Assembly (NCBI GenBank): GCA_016490735.1
Contig: JAEMWC010001120.1
Span: 42,501 to 106,500 of the forward strand
Length of the DNA: 64,000 nt
DNA from: Pachyseris speciosa
Lineage: Eukaryota > Cnidaria > Anthozoa > Scleractinia > Pachyseridae
Reading direction: 5' to 3'
In this document: positions 8,864-54,840 of the stretch, piece after piece
How positions within the stretch are numbered: position 1 is the stretch's first letter
Layout: the number at the start of each line of letters is the position of its first letter
The notes under the pieces: generated by a model
Seen by the model: the letters and a program-made list of their open reading frames with translations, nothing else
Databases searched by the model: none
Told to the model about the DNA's origin: nothing
Translations under genes and position numbers: made by a program

Positions 8864-9389
8864 TTCGCTGATGATGACCTCAATTAAACTTTAACAGTTT
8901 CCTTGAAATTTCTTGTCCGATTCATACTTTTTGGAGCTGAAAACTGCGTTCCCACGGATCGCAATTTATGTATAAATTGATCATTTAGCAGAGTAGTTGT
9001 CAACTCCTTGAGTTTCCTTGAGTTTCAGTTACCCATCATGTTTCTCGCAATAATGTCATCACTGCACACATTAGTAACCAGGAGACAGCTGATTATGAAG
9101 AATTCTAAAACATTTAAGTGATTGCAACCGAGCAAAATCGTTCAATTTCACAAACATTTCGCAAGTTTGTGAACTTGGTGAAGTTTGTTTTATTGTTAGG
9201 CGCGATTTTGCGATCAGCGGCTTTCATGTTAGAGCCCAGTCTCCTATGCACTTTCAGATTTGTCACGCTAGACGTGACAACAAAATACGTTATAGATAAA
9301 CCAGGTGCTGTCAAATCAGCACGTATACAGCATGTAGAAGGGATCATTTTACATGGACTTTGTTGTTTTCTCGGAATGCAGCTTCAAAC
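8864..9389. promoter_or_regulatory. Head-to-head intergenic promoter region
   Basis: This 526-bp gap separates two divergently oriented coding starts (8863 minus, 9390 plus). No clear TATA box is seen. An ORF at 9118-9393 overlaps the downstream start but has no recognised content. A shared promoter is inferred from layout only. Confidence 0.4.
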
Positions 9390-10549
9390 ATGAAACAGAA
9401 AAGCCACAAAACGAATATTGTGCTATATGTATTACTGCTGGGCTGCTTTTCTCAAGTACCATTCTCTGGCGCAAATCAATACAACCCTCACTTATTTCCA
9501 ACCGAAGGACCGTTCGTTGAAGGATGGTATTCGCGAATCATAGATTTCGAATCGAACCACTCGTTCGGGATCTTGTTTGGCCAAGTTATGTCAAGGAAAG
9601 AGGGACGTCTTTTCAGCCACTATCCACCAAACATGGTTTCACTAATCCACAGCAAAGGTGACGGCACGTCCATGCAGAGCTTCAAAGTTTACCCTTCTAG
9701 CAACGACATCGAAGTTACTGTTCAAGGTAAACCAGTGAGAAAAAATCCTGATTTTAAATCTCCAGCGAACTTCGAATGGAGGGCGAAGCCATATGGCTAC
9801 TTCAGAGTAAATGAACACGAAACAAGATTTAATTTCACCAACATAGATGGGGTCAGTTTTATTGGAGTTATGGGGCCTCCCAAACCTTGGGGTCCAAATG
9901 GAGAGGGTCCTGAAGGGTGGATTGACAAAGTACCATTCCTTCCACTACACTGGTTTGTGTACAGTTTAGGCTCAGAGCTTATAAACTACAACTGGGTCAA
10001 TGAAGTGACTGGAGAAATGTTGCGAGGAAGACAGGGCCTTGTTCATCAAGAAAAGAACTGGGGAAAAGGGTTTCCCCTGCTTGGATATGGGGTGAGGGTG
10101 TTGATGGGCCTTCAGGCTCTTCATTTGCTATCTCCCTTGGGGTCCTTGAAATTGCTAAATTCAATGTTCCTGCACATCTGATTGGCTACCGTAGTTCAGC
10201 CATCACCCTTAACTTTCGGCCAACCAATTCAGAGTTGACAAAGCATATTGACGGATGCAGCGGTGTGATAAATGGCACTGTGAAGAGCCTCACCCATAAA
10301 CTTGAATTTGAAATCCAAGCACCTCTATCAACTTTCCAAACATGCTTGCTTGGACCAACTGAGGATGGGTTTGCTCCAGTTTGCGTCGAGAGTTACATTG
10401 CTATTGCTAATTTCCATGTCTATAAGTTGACCTTGAGTGGATATGAATTGATTGAAAACAAAGCCTTCCATGCAGCTGCTTTGGAATTTGGTGGGTTGTA
10501 TCTTTGTCTGGAGAAAAATCCATGTCAGGAAGCTTGGAATTTGAAATAA
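9390..10549 (+). CDS. Tocopherol-cyclase-like secreted protein (1-nt frameshift)
   Basis: An intronless coding region of about 386 codons. The chosen ATG at 9390 gives a signal peptide (hydrophobic VLYVLLLGCF). Family motifs follow in order: EGWYSR near residue 30, a glycine/proline block (GPEGWIDKVPFLPLHW), and HQEKNWGKGFP, the EKNWG-FP signature of the tocopherol cyclase family. The frame breaks in the C4 run at 10074-10077. One missing base there moves the rest into frame 2, where AWIWGEG and the C-terminal half continue without stops to 10549. The homologous codons on both sides abut exactly, so an intron is not needed. Either a recent one-base deletion or a sequence error. The substrate in an animal is unknown, and the cyclase activity is not established. 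Confidence 0.7.
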
Positions 10550-14121: not shown

Positions 14122-14187
14122 ATCATCATTGTCTATAATATGCTGTTTGCTGTATAAAGCTCTGGTTAATTGAGGCACAAAAATAAA

Positions 14188-15030
14188 CGAAGTTCACGGC
14201 TTACTCAATCGGCAGCTAGCTCAAGCTGCGGCTTATCCTGGCTTTGGGGTTACGTTGTTCTTATTGTTGTCTTGTTGTTCTTGTTCTTATCTTGGCTACT
14301 GCTTACCTTGGACGTGAAAGTGTTCGTATAAATGTACTCAAGTGCTGTCCGCGGCTTGCTCAAGCATGCGCTTTTTTGTTATTATTAATAGCGAACTTAG
14401 CCGCGAACCATTTATACGAGCATTTCGCGTCTTATGTAAGCCGCACTCGTATAAATGGCCCACTCGCGTCTTATGTAAGGCCAGTGTAATCCAGTGTAAG
14501 CCACGGCTTATTTTCTCTCGTATAATGTTGCGACAACAACTTGAGCTCGCGCATGTTTCCAAGATGTTTCCCCGTTTAGCCACTCAAGGAAACATTGTTG
14601 GGGTAACAAGAAATGTTTCTGTGGGAGTTCAACAACAATGTTTCCTCGGGTGGCTAAACAGGGAAACATCTTGGAAACATGCGCGAACTCAAGTTGTTGC
14701 CGCAACGTTATATGAGAGAAAATAAGCCGCAGCTTACACTGGCCGCGGCCTACATAAGACGCGGCCGGGCCATTAATACGAGTGCGGCTTACATAAGACG
14801 CGAAATGCCTGAAATGCTCGTATAAATGGTTCGTGGCTAAGTTCGCTATAATAACAAAAGAAGCGCATGCTTGAGCAAGCCGCGGGCAGCGCTTAAGTAA
14901 ATTTATACGAATACTTTCACGTCAAGGGTAAGCAGCGGCCAAGATAAGCATAGCCTAGCATAGCAAAACCCTTTGGCCAGGATAAGCCGCGGCTTGAGGT
15001 AGCTGCCGAAGGGGTAAGTCGTGAACTTCG
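14188..15030. mobile_element. 843-bp foldback element (long palindrome)
   Basis: Left arm from 14188 (CGAAGTTCACGGCTTACTC) and right arm to 15030 are inverted copies over nearly 400 bp each, meeting near 14609. Subrepeats TTATACGAG and TAAGCCGCGGCTTA recur in both arms. No transposase. Short open frames in it mirror one another on the two strands. Confidence 0.85.
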
Positions 15031-15072
15031 ATTATGTATTATTTTAACGGAGCGTTCGTGTCTAATGTAAGC

Positions 15073-15417
15073 TCAATCTTTGCTTTGGTAGATTTAAGGG
15101 GGAATGCCCGCTACCTTGCGGCCTTTGTGCCTTTATAGTGGCTTCAGCTTACTTGATCACATTAATTTGTGAAGTATCCTTGTCACTCCAGCCACATCCC
15201 ACAAGCTTTACGTTTTCATTGTTTGTTTTATTGATATGTGGGTACTTGAGCCTGAGCATTAGCTATGCCATGCTGATGAGGCCTAATAAGGCCGAAACAG
15301 CTGTCCATGGCTGCTAATGCTTGGGCTCAATCTTTGCTTTGGTAGATTTGCTACCTTGTGGCCTTTGTGCCTTTAGAGTAGCTTCAGCTTACTTGATCAC
15401 ATTAATTTGTGAAGTAT
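15073..15417 (+). mobile_element. Retrozyme-like insertion (1.4 units of a 254-bp repeat)
   Basis: TAATGTAAGC occurs directly outside both ends (15063-15072 and 15418-15427), a 10-bp target duplication. Inside, the block CTCAATCTTTGCTTTGGTAG occurs at about 15072 and about 15326 (period 254 bp), so there is one full unit plus about 95 bp of a second. The unit junction carries a complete hammerhead ribozyme (15248-15328). There is no ORF. This is the build described for animal retrozymes: small non-coding repeats with type I hammerheads, mobilised through circular RNA. The host sequence around it belongs to the foldback family at 14188-15030. Confidence 0.75.
15248..15328 (+). ncRNA. Type I hammerhead ribozyme
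   Basis: Core box CTGATGA at 15273-15279. Stem II is GGCC-TAATAA-GGCC (15280-15293), followed by the invariant GAAA (15294-15297). Stem III is very short with the palindrome ACAGCTGT (15297-15304), and the cleavage site is GTC, ending at 15305. Stem I closes the molecule: GCCATG (15267-15272) pairs with CATGGC (15306-15311), then GCATTAGC (15256-15263) with GCTAATGC (15313-15320), then eight further pairs including two G-U (15248-15255 with 15321-15328). All conserved core bases are present. The palindromic stem III would favour activity in tandem or dimeric RNA, as in newt satellite and retrozyme hammerheads. Confidence 0.92.
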
Positions 15418-15428
15418 TAATGTAAGCC

Positions 15429-34149: not shown

Positions 34150-36830
34150 AAAGCACCGGATTCTGACTTTCAGACCTTTATTTCTTCGCTACATGAGAGT
34201 ATGTCATCTGTGGATCTGGAAAAATCGGATGTGGTAATTCTAGGCGATTTAAACGCAGACATGATGGCGAGTTCTAAATTGCCAAAAAGAGATAAACAAG
34301 AACTTCTTAACTTTTCGCGGGCCTACAACTTCACTCAGTTAATAAAAGAACCGACGCGCATAACTGACACCTCGCGGACAATGATCGACTTGGTTTTTGC
34401 TAATAATGAACACCGCATTGTCAAATCTGGTGTTGTTCCAGTACCGCTTAGCGACCATTTTCTGGTATTTTGCATAATTAAAGCTGGTATTACAACAAAG
34501 GCTAAACCGAGAATACTCGAGTATCGCTCCTATAAGAATTTTAATCCGACTTTATTTAATGATGATCTTAGGAATATTCCCTGGCATATTGTTGAAAACG
34601 AGGACAACGTCGACGATGCCTTGTTTACGTGGAATAAAATGTTTTCGGAGGTTGCTGATCAACACGCACCAGTGAAAAGAAGGCGTGTCAAGGGAACACC
34701 TCTTCCATGGATGAACAATCAAATAAGTGATACTATGAAAGAACGTGATTGGGCGCATAGAAAGGCGCGAAAATCGAACTCGGCGCGTCATTGGTCAATG
34801 TATGCAAAGCTTAGGAACAAGGTTAATGGGTTAGTACGAACTGCCAAGTCTAAATATTACTGTGATATGATCGAGGAAGCCAAGGGTGACTCAGAAAAGG
34901 TGTGGAAAGCAGTGAACGAAGCATGCAATCGGAACTCATCTTCAGAGAGTATTCAGTGTATTATCTCTGGTGGTGTTCAGCATATAACATCCCAATCCAT
35001 TGCTTCTTCAATGAATAGCTTCTTTGCTTCCATTGGCCGAATTCTAGCAAGTAGAATACAGACTTCCGTCTTGAATTTAAATTCCATTTCAAAACACCCG
35101 CTTTTCCAATTCGAGTTGACTGAATTGGATCAATCATTTGTGCTTGAGCAGCTTTTGTCATTGAAAGCAAACAAAGCGATTGGTCTTGATAAAATTAGCG
35201 CGAGACTTCTTAAAATCTCAGCTCACACAATTGCACCATCTGTTGTTAAACTTTTGAATCTTTCAATTCGCACTAGTCAATTTCCCAAATTGTGGAAATG
35301 CGCGAAAATCACGGCATTGTTTAAGTCAGGTGACAGGACTAACGTTTTCAACTACCGCCCCATCTCAATCATCCCCACACTAAGCAAGATTTTGGAGAGA
35401 GCGGTACACTTGCAGTTGTATCAGTACTTGATTACCAATAATTTATTGTCCAACAAGCAGTTTGGTTTCCGGAAGGGTTTCTCAACTACAACAGCTTTGA
35501 CCTCATTTGCTGATGAAGTGCTCTTAAACATGGAACAAGGAAAGCTTTGCGGGGCCGTGTTCATCGATCTAGCCAAGGCATTTGACACCGTAGACCATCA
35601 AATAATGTTATGCAAGCTATCCGAGATCGGCCTTTCTGAAACAGCTCTTCATTGGTTCCGTTCTTACTTAACTGGTAGACAACAGCGCACCTCATGTGGA
35701 AATGAGTTATCTGAGGAACTTCCAGTCACGCATGGGTGCCACAGGGTAGCATTCTAGGGCCTCTGTTGTTTGTGATTTACATAAATAACTTGCCAAATGT
35801 GCTTAACTCCTGCTACGCGTCACTTTATGCAGACGACACCGTGATTTATTGCTATGGTACATCCTCAAAGGAATTGAGTGATAAGTTAAATAACGATCTA
35901 CTGGGTGTGGCGAAATGGCTTCATGATCACAAACTGACTTTAAATTTGGACAAAACTAAATGCATGCTTATCGGTAGTAATAGGAAACGCGAAAGCAAAG
36001 TAGATTTGACTGTATCAATTTTAGATCATAGCATAAGTAATGTTCGCAGCTTTAAATACCTCGGTATACATATATCTTCGGATTTCACATGGACTGATCA
36101 TATTGAACACCTAACTGGGAAAATCAATCAGAGGCTTGGGCTTCTCAAGCGTATAAAGCATTTATTGCCTTTCAGGGCGCGTCTACTTTTCTACAAAAGT
36201 CTTGTCATGCCCCTTTTGAATATGCTGATCTAGTATGGGGCGATAAACATAATATTACCCTTATGTCTAGTTTGCAAGTTTTGCAAAATAAGGCCGCTAA
36301 AGTTATTTTAAATAGACCATTGTATTTATCCTCCACTGAGGCATTAGCCGTTCTCAAGTGGCTGCCTCTAGAGAAAAGGCGATTTCAAAGAAGGTGTGTA
36401 CACGTATACAAATGCATCAATGGCCTAATTAATCACGATATGGACTTGATTAGACAAGACGTACGTCATAGGCATAATACACGTAACAAAGGCAATTTTA
36501 GATTACCACGTGTCAAAAGAAATTGGGGGAAGCAAAGAACACAATATCATGCCGTTTCCGACTTTAACTCCCTTAGTCAGACGATCAAAGACTCAAGGAA
36601 TGTAAATAGTTTTAAACGTAATGTTTTTAAGTTTTTAATATAGCTACTTAAGTTTAATTTTTATTTATACTTATTTTTAATTTTTGTGCATTTTTTGTAT
36701 CTTTTTAATCCCTTTGCAATTTTATAGCTTTTTTGTTTTTACAATATATATCTAGTTTTGAGGTCCTTTTTGAAAACCATATCTTTTATGAAAAAGTTTC
36801 CTCAATAAAGATGATTATTATTTTATTTTA
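34150..36830 (+). mobile_element. CR1/jockey-group LINE, 5'-truncated
   Basis: Coding runs from about 34159 to 36643. First comes the end of an AP-endonuclease domain (VVILGDLNAD, SDHFLVF), then the reverse transcriptase (NYRPISIIPTLSKILERAV, FRKGFSTTTAL, FIDLAKAFDTVDH, QGSILGPLLFV, LYADDTVIY) and a C-terminal region ending FKRNVFKFLI. Only two frame breaks occur, both one-base losses in homopolymers (G3 at 35734-35736, T4 at 36214-36217). The 3' UTR has AATAAA at 36804 and ends GATGATTATTATT. It interrupts an older gene fragment. With so few lesions it is among the younger LINE copies here. Confidence 0.85.
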
Positions 36831-39565: not shown

Positions 39566-39775
39566 TTTATATGAGAATGAATATATGAAAATCATATTTT
39601 TGAACTGCGGATTAATAATTTAATATGTGAATGATCATCGCAGTTATGAACACTACTTAAGCAGTATTGAAGATAAAGCCTGGAAAAAAAATTCAGGCTT
39701 GTACGGGATTCGAAGCCACAACCTCTGCGATACCAGTGCAGCGCTCTACCGACTGAGCTAACAAGCCATCTGGGA
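39566..39775 (-). mobile_element. tRNA-derived SINE
   Basis: On the minus strand: TTAGCTCAGTCGGTAGAGCG (A box), TGGCTTCGAATCCCG (B box), ACAAGCCTGAATTTTTTTTC, then a body with CATAACTGCGATGATCATTC and a tail toward 39566. Different SINE family from the one at 13590. Confidence 0.8.
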
Positions 39776-53333: not shown

Positions 53334-54840
53334 ATCCTTTATTTAAACACGATAAAAGTTTAAAGCATATGCTTGTGGGGTCGTGTGTATAGGATACGAA
53401 TACAAATTAAAAACCAGATAAAAACATGTTAAAACTGAATTACTTCTTAAAAATAATGTTAAAAGAATAATAAGAATAATGTGATTATAGGATTTAAATT
53501 AGGTAAAATACAGACTCAATTTTAAATAAATAACTATGACAGTAAGAGTCATAAAATCCGGCTAAATCTAAAAGCACTGGGAATCGATTGAACTGACTGT
53601 GCACTAGAATATAGGTCCTGGATATACCTGTCCTTCTTCACGTTACGATGAAAAGCCATAAATTGGGAGCCGGTGTAGTACGTGCAGACAGCGTTCCATA
53701 AGATGTCACCTCTATGGCTAATGGAGTTTTTAAGGAAGTACGAATTGAAGCGTGGTACTATGATCCTGTTACTCCGTTTTAAGTCGTAAGCAGCACAAGA
53801 TTTGTTCACTAAGTAAGATAATACGTGGGGAGCTTCGTCACTAAATACCTTGTAAAATAATTTAATCAGTCGAAGCTTGTACAGGTGACTTAAAGTACTC
53901 CACTTGGAATGCTGGTAAACATCAGCAGATGGCATATCGTAGGGCAGATTGTCGATCATCCTTGCTGCCCTATACGGTGAAGTATTTCCAAGGAGTTTAG
54001 CTGTTCTGCATTTGCGGCTCCTCCCCACACGATAAGGCCATATAAAACTGCAGGCAATATAACTTTATAGTACAAATCCAGTAAAGTTTCTCTTCATAGG
54101 AAAGAACTCCTCTTTATGAGATTTAGTTTGTTTACGCGAAAATCTTCTTTAAGTATGTAAGGTGTTGTGACCAAGAAAGTCTGTCGTCAATTGTGATGCC
54201 AAGGAGACGAGTGTGATTAACCCACTCGATTCGATCCTGCCCAATGTTCACCGAGTTTAGAGGCCCGATCATTGTTTTATTTTTTCATCAATAACATTGC
54301 TTCGCACTTTCCCGAGTAATGAGTTAACGAGTTATCTTGGCACCACCTCTTTAAATCTGATAATGCTGGGTTAAGAGATGTCACAGCATTATCCACATTA
54401 TCACCAATACAATCGACAGTGGTGTCATCGGCATACATAAACACGGAGCCAGAGGAAATTGAACTTGGCAGGTCGTTTGTGTATAGTACAAACAGTGTGG
54501 GGCCCAGTATTGATCCTTGTGCAATACCACATCTAACGTTCGCAACAGTAGATTGCCGGACATTCACTTCAGAGAATTGAGTTCGATCTGATAGATAATC
54601 TGTCAGCCATGAGAACAAAGGTCCTTGAATGCCAAACTGATGTCTCAATTTGTGTAGTAGTATCGCATGAGATACGCAGTCGAAAGCCTTTCTGAAGTCT
54701 ATGAACGCTACTGCTACTAAGTTGTTCTGATCAACAGCCTTTCTCCAGGTTTCAGAGAAGTGAACGAGCAATAGTTCTGTGTAATACCACTCGCGATAGG
54801 CCCACTGGTAGTCTGTTATCAGATTGTGATCAAAAACGTG
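53334..54840 (-). mobile_element. CR1/L2-group LINE, 5'-truncated
   Basis: From about 54840 (minus): DYQWAYREW, TELLLVHFSETWRKAV, VAFIDFRKAFDCVSH, IAQGSILGPTLFVLY, MYADDTTVDC, then after several shifts LLGITIDDRLSW, GLIVWGGAANAEQLNSLE and a C-terminal tail to 53549. The 3' end is TTTAAATAAAGGATATG, passing straight into the (TATG)n/(TG)n tract. Confidence 0.8.

Follow-up and report, generated by a model that had tools for sequence, protein, structure and literature searches.

Paired internal 3' ends in a coral retrozyme family suggest integration by Penelope-like machinery

The window considered here, a stretch of 64,000 nucleotides of Pachyseris speciosa DNA, carries at positions 15073-15417 a 345-bp insert with exact 10-bp repeats, TAATGTAAGC, on either side. 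Table 1 presents an overview of the features of this insert. Both the insertion and its flanks had been proposed in an initial annotation made from the letters of the sequence, and both are confirmed. As the unit begins with a 'GC' that is also the last dinucleotide of the flanking repeat, the target duplication is best given as 8-10 bp. The insert consists of 1.36 copies of a 254-nt unit, in agreement with the 1.4 copies first proposed, and the tandem repeat within it aligns 15071-15177 with 15325-15417 at a spacing of 254. A single type I hammerhead ribozyme is present. By eye, 14 nt of the first unit are missing from the partial second copy, and most of the other matched places in the genome are 14 bases longer than the corresponding part of the query (361 versus 347). 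The overlapping parts of the insert differ by 3.3% and its duplication, at 10 bp, is short. The insert is non-coding, its longest stop-to-stop frame being 80 codons, and the unit has a GC content of 0.449. Besides the tandem unit no terminal repeat was found in the insert, and no second copy of the retrozyme was found within the 64-kb window. Since one hammerhead in 1.36 units allows one cut, the window copy alone cannot free a unit-length RNA or a circle.

Table 1. Features of the retrozyme insert, in window coordinates
Feature	Position	Strand	Remarks
Left target site duplication TAATGTAAGC	15063..15072	.	exact match to right copy
Full 254-nt retrozyme unit	15073..15326	+	unit position 1 = 15073
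Small predicted hairpin TCACA-TTAATT-TGTGA before site A	15157..15172	+	second copy 15397-15412
Site A, preferred 3' end of genomic copies	15176..15184	+	unit ~104-112
Site B, second preferred 3' end	15214..15222	+	unit ~142-150
Type I hammerhead region, long stem I	15244..15332	+	Rfam below gathering score, copies compared
Hammerhead core CTGATGA..GAAA..GTC	15273..15305	+	predicted cleavage after 15305
Palindromic stem III ACAGCTGT	15297..15304	+	suited to double (dimeric) hammerhead
Partial second unit, 91 nt	15327..15417	+	lacks 14 nt; runs to unit position 105, at site A
Right target site duplication TAATGTAAGC	15418..15427	.	exact match to left copy

Directly to the left of the insert is a 650-bp imperfect palindrome (81%; 14183-14837) with GCCGCGG/CTTAC repeats, and the insert sits inside or beside this other repeat. 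Elsewhere in the window, a frame at 9360-10178 (+) is related to proteins with a tocopherol cyclase domain (PF14249) from corals, molluscs, echinoderms and others; its closest named relatives belong to the stony corals Oculina patagonica (75%), Desmophyllum pertusum (73%) and Montipora foliosa (70%), and a further relative stands at 90%. A tRNA match of 57.6 bits lies at 39695-39767 (-). A LINE reverse transcriptase of the AP-endonuclease type occupies two overlapping frames at 34201-36233 (+), and a reverse transcriptase fragment is located at 54280-54771 (-).

The hammerhead had been described as having a complete core and a stem I of 6 + 16 pairs. This is borne out by the core at 15273-15305 and by pairing judged by eye, in which stem I comprises 6 pairs, an internal loop and 16 pairs including 2 G-U pairs. 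The proposed check with a covariance model succeeded in part: at a relaxed threshold the Rfam model Hammerhead_HH9 matches with 32.9 bits (E 2.8e-6), but this is below the gathering score of 52, at which Rfam gives no hammerhead match in the window. The gathering score is an insensitive test, since seven viral-contig loci with an exact hammerhead-like pattern, of which L035 was inspected at sequence level, are also without a match at that score. In the window, a structural descriptor recovers this site alone; of 100 simulated windows, 2 contain a match, and in neither does it have a stem I of at least 6 and a stem II of at least 4 pairs. The sequence core alone is not improbable, being present in 28 of 100 shuffles. 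Across the full-length hammerhead copies, the core is kept in 132 of 141 and the stem III palindrome ACAGCTGT in 129 of 141. By folding energies that leave tertiary contacts out of account, a single copy favours a rival form (-20.0 versus -12.6 kcal/mol for the hammerhead), and the minimum of a two-copy cofold is a double hammerhead with an 8-bp stem III (-43.9 kcal/mol). The latter is in line with the dimeric ribozymes reported for axolotl in the accessible part of an earlier study (PMC7229834).

A viral collection was also considered. One match to exact unit words was judged to be due to chance, with no hammerhead or repeat in the 700 bases around it. The hammerhead pattern occurs in 46 of the viral contigs; L035, which has two hammerhead-like motifs 298 bp apart (303-340 and 601-638), was set aside, as its motifs lie in apparent gaps between frames and no repeat resembling the 254-nt unit accompanies them.

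Further copies were sought in the window's own genome, an assembly of 2368 contigs totalling 983.7 Mb. Of 1327 candidate places, the best 40 by likeness to the window copy were scored and gave 96 matches; 39 loci were mapped, of which 37 are distinct after the removal of two haplotig pairs with common flanks. The end counts leave out L087 and L093 (haplotigs of L082 and L063), the cut-off second block of L098 and the cut-off ends of L065 and L068. L049-L062, L069 and L073-L076 were not mapped separately, the same places being covered by L101-L105, and L105 represents two inserts. Other genomic copies with independent flanks do exist, as the initial annotation had anticipated. Target duplications recur among the best 40 of 1327 places. 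Besides the two haplotig pairs, L092 and L103 are the only mapped loci with alike flanks over 150 bases. Arrays range from 1.4 units of 254 nt (1.36 in the window copy) to 15, the 15-unit array (L101) having a 15-bp target duplication. Assignment of the insertion to the retrozyme type is thus supported: a canonical type I hammerhead lies within a repeat, the 254-nt units are tandem and non-coding with a GC content under 50%, and target duplications exceed 4 bp (8-17 bp in 21 of 36 inserts). The element belongs to the non-LTR retrozymes and resides in a coral-like genome; retrozymes of this kind have been published before, as the accessible text of that work describes them (PMC7229834).

The ends of the copies follow a pattern. 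With limits fixed after the data were seen, 30 of 59 outward 3' ends fall at site A (unit 99-115), 27 at site B (142-157) and 2 elsewhere, so that 57 of 59 lie at about 108 or 147, positions some 40 nt apart and away from the hammerhead cut. Two optimally placed 24-nt windows contain 57 of the 59 ends; none of 300 uniform simulations exceeds 27. The two stray ends are at unit 29 (L091) and unit 233 (L100). The latter (L100:2342) coincides exactly with the predicted cleavage site GTC, as if the end of a self-cleaved linear RNA had been copied, and no target duplication was found there. The 5' ends scatter (15 single-orientation inserts, Rayleigh p 0.06). The region of the hairpin before A folds no better than shuffles (25/200). 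The window copy starts at unit 253/1 and ends at A (unit 105); its right end corresponds to a site where reverse transcription preferentially begins, and its left end is an arbitrary stop. The earlier idea that a clean copy would reveal the boundaries of the mobile unit directly was wrong, as the unit is a 254-nt circle or tandem.

Inserts in two orientations carry this pattern further. In 21 head-to-head inverted inserts a minus block precedes a plus block, with 5' ends inward and 3' ends outward; no tail-to-tail insert was found among the mapped loci. The ends are A/B in 18 of these, A/A in one, and include one other end in the remaining two. Where both ends lie at A or B, 18 of 19 inserts are A/B (p 3.6e-5 versus independent ends). 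Matches were picked by likeness to the window copy, which may bias the ends of the query-bearing arm; the shorter arms, mostly too short to have drawn the match, end by eye at A or B in 20 of 21 inverted inserts. Target duplications of at least 8 bp flank 21 of 36 inserts (8-17 bp, with 13-15 bp in 16 of the 21), no duplication is seen at 12, and the remaining 3 have uncertain ones (repeats of 7 and 6 bp, and one that lies within a microsatellite). At 36 ends, target and RNA share a mean of 1.6 nt at the start, compared with 0.4 when shuffled and a maximum of 0.8 in 2000 shuffles, a measure favoured by taking the longest repeat as the duplication. Tandem arrays of a single period with similar units inside them could also be ordinary satellite DNA, generated by unequal crossing-over or DNA rolling circles with the hammerhead as an incidental passenger. 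Against this, duplications at independent loci, fixed 3' and scattered 5' ends, and the paired A/B head-to-head structure are marks of retrotransposition and make a satellite origin extremely improbable.

The LINE reverse transcriptase in the window at 34201-36233 has many relatives. Ordinary target-primed reverse transcription, with twin priming now and then, might allow an AP-endonuclease LINE to mobilise the retrozyme, and target duplications and twin-primed inversions are known from LINEs too. However, in LINE twin priming one end is fixed at the RNA 3' terminus and the inner start is variable, and LINE and SINE copies have a 3' end fixed at the RNA terminus with a poly(A) or tail repeat. 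In the retrozyme inserts the listed ends are internal, at A and B, and no poly(A) or tail repeat was seen at them. Both ends are fixed and A/B-paired in 18 of 19 inserts, 1 of 59 3' ends (L100, unit 233) lies at the hammerhead-cut RNA terminus, and three Penelope inserts of this genome have a matching pattern. We consider mobilisation by a LINE improbable on these grounds, while recording that 15-bp duplications of Nematostella repeats have been likened to those of LINEs in the accessible part of a published account (PMC4918200).

Penelope-like elements of the same genome offer a closer parallel. A GIY-YIG domain of Penelope type lies in the flank of array L101. Next to it, stretch L106 contains a Penelope-like element of head-to-head build, with an endonuclease frame and a reverse transcriptase-like frame; the second of these is named from its place and by eye and has no Pfam match. 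We take this family to be Penelope from the GIY-YIG match, the arrangement and motifs known from such elements; none of the curated Penelope models matched. The element is surrounded by a 14-bp duplication and has two ends, A' (..CCAAATTTTC) and B' (..CCCCTTTATTCA). L091 and L132 are likewise head-to-head with the A' and B' ends of L106 and have duplications of 13 and 12 bp; A' and B' are 60, 61 and 57 nt apart in L106, L091 and L132, respectively. Four further inserts complete the seven examined: the inverted L129 has one B' end and another, inner end, and L130, L131 and L133 are 5'-truncated in a single orientation with B' ends. No convincing duplication was found at these four. L129-L133 were drawn from the best 40 of 955 candidate places. 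When 20 B' flanks were compared, most diverge within a few bases of B'; the exceptions are L123, which continues into the element, L108 and L109, which have a common flank, and L126, which is ambiguous for some bases. The small head-to-head insert at L091:2750-3392, with Penelope pLTR ends and a 13-bp duplication, apparently has no Penelope frames and is perhaps a Penelope-derived non-autonomous element near a retrozyme copy. A candidate insert with two B' ends (G000 C899:259744-262595) was rejected as part of a larger inverted duplication; its flanks are mutually reverse-complementary, and a Penelope end has been inversely duplicated together with its flank.

The likeness between retrozyme and Penelope is one of anatomy. 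As in Penelope-type integration, the retrozyme has two adjacent internal start sites, one for each end of an inverted insert, and head-to-head inserts with duplications. A hairpin is predicted just before both A and A', and the A-B segment is 59% A+C in retrozyme and Penelope alike (43% in the whole unit and 55% in the Penelope pLTR region). At B, 14 of 17 bases are alike, a value reached by 100 of 5000 shuffles, and at A nothing is shared. Homology between the retrozyme and the Penelope pLTR was rejected, as the wider alignment is not significant (89/1000; whole unit 31/300). Rfam gives no hammerhead match in the Penelope pLTR, where a hammerhead-like stretch, CCGACGA..GAAACGTC, can be discerned by eye. 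Since there is almost no common sequence and the A'-B' distance is 57-61 nt compared with about 40 nt, the sampled Penelope family cannot be named as the acting one. The retrozyme itself is a 254-nt non-coding unit with neither reverse transcriptase nor GIY-YIG endonuclease, and so seems to use Penelope machinery while being no Penelope-like element. The initial annotation had remarked that the mobilising enzyme is not visible, which holds for the window; the rest of the genome, through its Penelope-like elements, nevertheless permits one to be suggested.

Comparison of the arms bears on the template. Units of the same arm differ by 1.0% (498 pairs) and units in different arms at one locus by 1.3% (157 pairs, into which the separate blocks of L105 and of L098 are also counted); for units of different loci the figure is 2.8% (666 locus pairs). 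Per insert, the arms differ from each other by 1.7% and from other loci by 2.7%, the former being lower in 14 of 17 inverted inserts. L070, L092 and L099 have arms that resemble other loci at least as much as they resemble each other, and L098 is marginal; these exceptions could be old copies or the products of two different RNAs. The likeness of the arms is explained if copying from both target ends used a circle or a highly uniform multimer. The multimer in question would be a linear, uncleaved transcript of a genomic array, with the ribozyme unneeded for copying. Long arrays that could be transcribed are present (L080, L101), and, according to the accessible portion of the anole Penelope study, insertion in vitro is independent of the hammerhead and unprocessed RNA is taken as the dominant substrate (PMC11167929). 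Near-identical units such as those of L101 (0.11%) and L095 (0) are to be expected from a circle, although a uniform multimer is equally able to produce them. The retention of the core in 132 of 141 copies and the circles shown for the Acropora element (PMC7229834) argue for a circle, and a linear template appears rather unlikely.

Paired A/B ends, target duplications, arm likeness and the matching anatomy of three Penelope inserts, all read directly from the genome along with the end positions, lead us to consider it likely that the retrozyme is copied through twin priming by Penelope machinery, with RNA circles as the probable template. The involvement of a circular template, of cleavage and of ligation is inferred, as is the identity of the acting Penelope family. 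Transcripts of tandem units would be cut by their type I hammerheads, with the palindromic stem III favouring the pairing of two ribozymes, and the unit RNA may then be ligated to a circle, as published coral work suggests. A Penelope-like complex combining a GIY-YIG endonuclease and a reverse transcriptase would cut the two strands of the target at positions about 14 bp from each other. Priming by one or both of the 3' ends of the target would occur at the fixed internal places A and B, about 40 nt apart on the RNA, often aided by a few bases of microhomology, and copying would proceed for one to many rounds of the template with no fixed stop. A direct array would arise where a single target end is used; where both are used, the product would be a head-to-head inverted array that ends at A on one side and at B on the other. 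On the more specific picture of a two-headed Penelope complex seated on one small RNA circle, with both chromosome ends priming at two set places and copied for many rounds, our judgement is evenly divided. If true, such twin-primed rolling-circle reverse transcription would account jointly for the arrays of the retrozyme, the head-to-head inserts of Penelope and the 'tail', as well as for the origin of ribozyme-bearing animal satellites.

The kind of element is already known; what is new is how its copies integrate, an anatomy for which no published report was found in the open-access literature searched. Penelope-like elements have been named only as strong candidates for moving animal retrozymes, a proposal based, in the accessible text, on type I hammerheads in both, tandem copies and coexistence (PMC7229834). 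The end map provides direct genomic evidence on what moves animal retrozymes and locates the start of copying on the unit. It also suggests why inverted Penelope inserts have paired ends. In the available sections of the anole work, the Penelope protein (PAc) cuts and extends both strands from two adjacent internal RNA start sites in an AC-rich stem-loop, the intervening stretch being the genomic 'tail' (PMC11167929). Rotifer Penelopes, as far as the accessible account describes them, have pLTRs in head-to-head order, one of which may carry a 31-bp tail, and the palindromes at their junctions are explained there by self-priming on antisense RNA (PMC3846280). A scheme simpler than self-priming fits the retrozyme data, with each of the two target ends starting at one of the two sites of one sense template. 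The Penelope question lends itself to testing in the in vitro assay established for the anole enzyme.

Among known systems, the nearest in kind are the non-LTR retrozymes of Acropora millepora (Cervera and de la Pena 2020, PMC7229834), which share short tandem units (about 220-245 bp, here 254), low GC, a canonical type I hammerhead, indel variants and many copies. That comparison is by description rather than by sequence, and fixed 3' ends, head-to-head inserts and a tail go unmentioned in the accessible text of the report. From the same text, axolotl retrozymes have a similarly weak stem III with a palindromic tetraloop (here AGCU) favouring dimeric ribozymes, but differ in their units of 330-350 nt and their vertebrate host (PMC7229834). 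Plant LTR retrozymes are likewise ribozyme-bearing and non-autonomous with proposed movement through circular RNA; by the portions of the literature available, they differ in having type III hammerheads, LTRs, PBS/PPT, 4-bp duplications and a proposed Gypsy machinery (PMC4918200, PMC7229834). Unlike Penelopes, the retrozyme codes for nothing, has a canonical hammerhead and shows no clear sequence kinship to them, and its A-B distance is about 40 nt compared with 57-61 nt in the sampled Penelope family of this genome. With anole PAc and the rotifer Penelopes, to the extent of the accessible descriptions, it nonetheless shares two adjacent internal starts, a tail at one inverted end, a head-to-head layout, partial tandems and target duplications (PMC11167929, PMC3846280).
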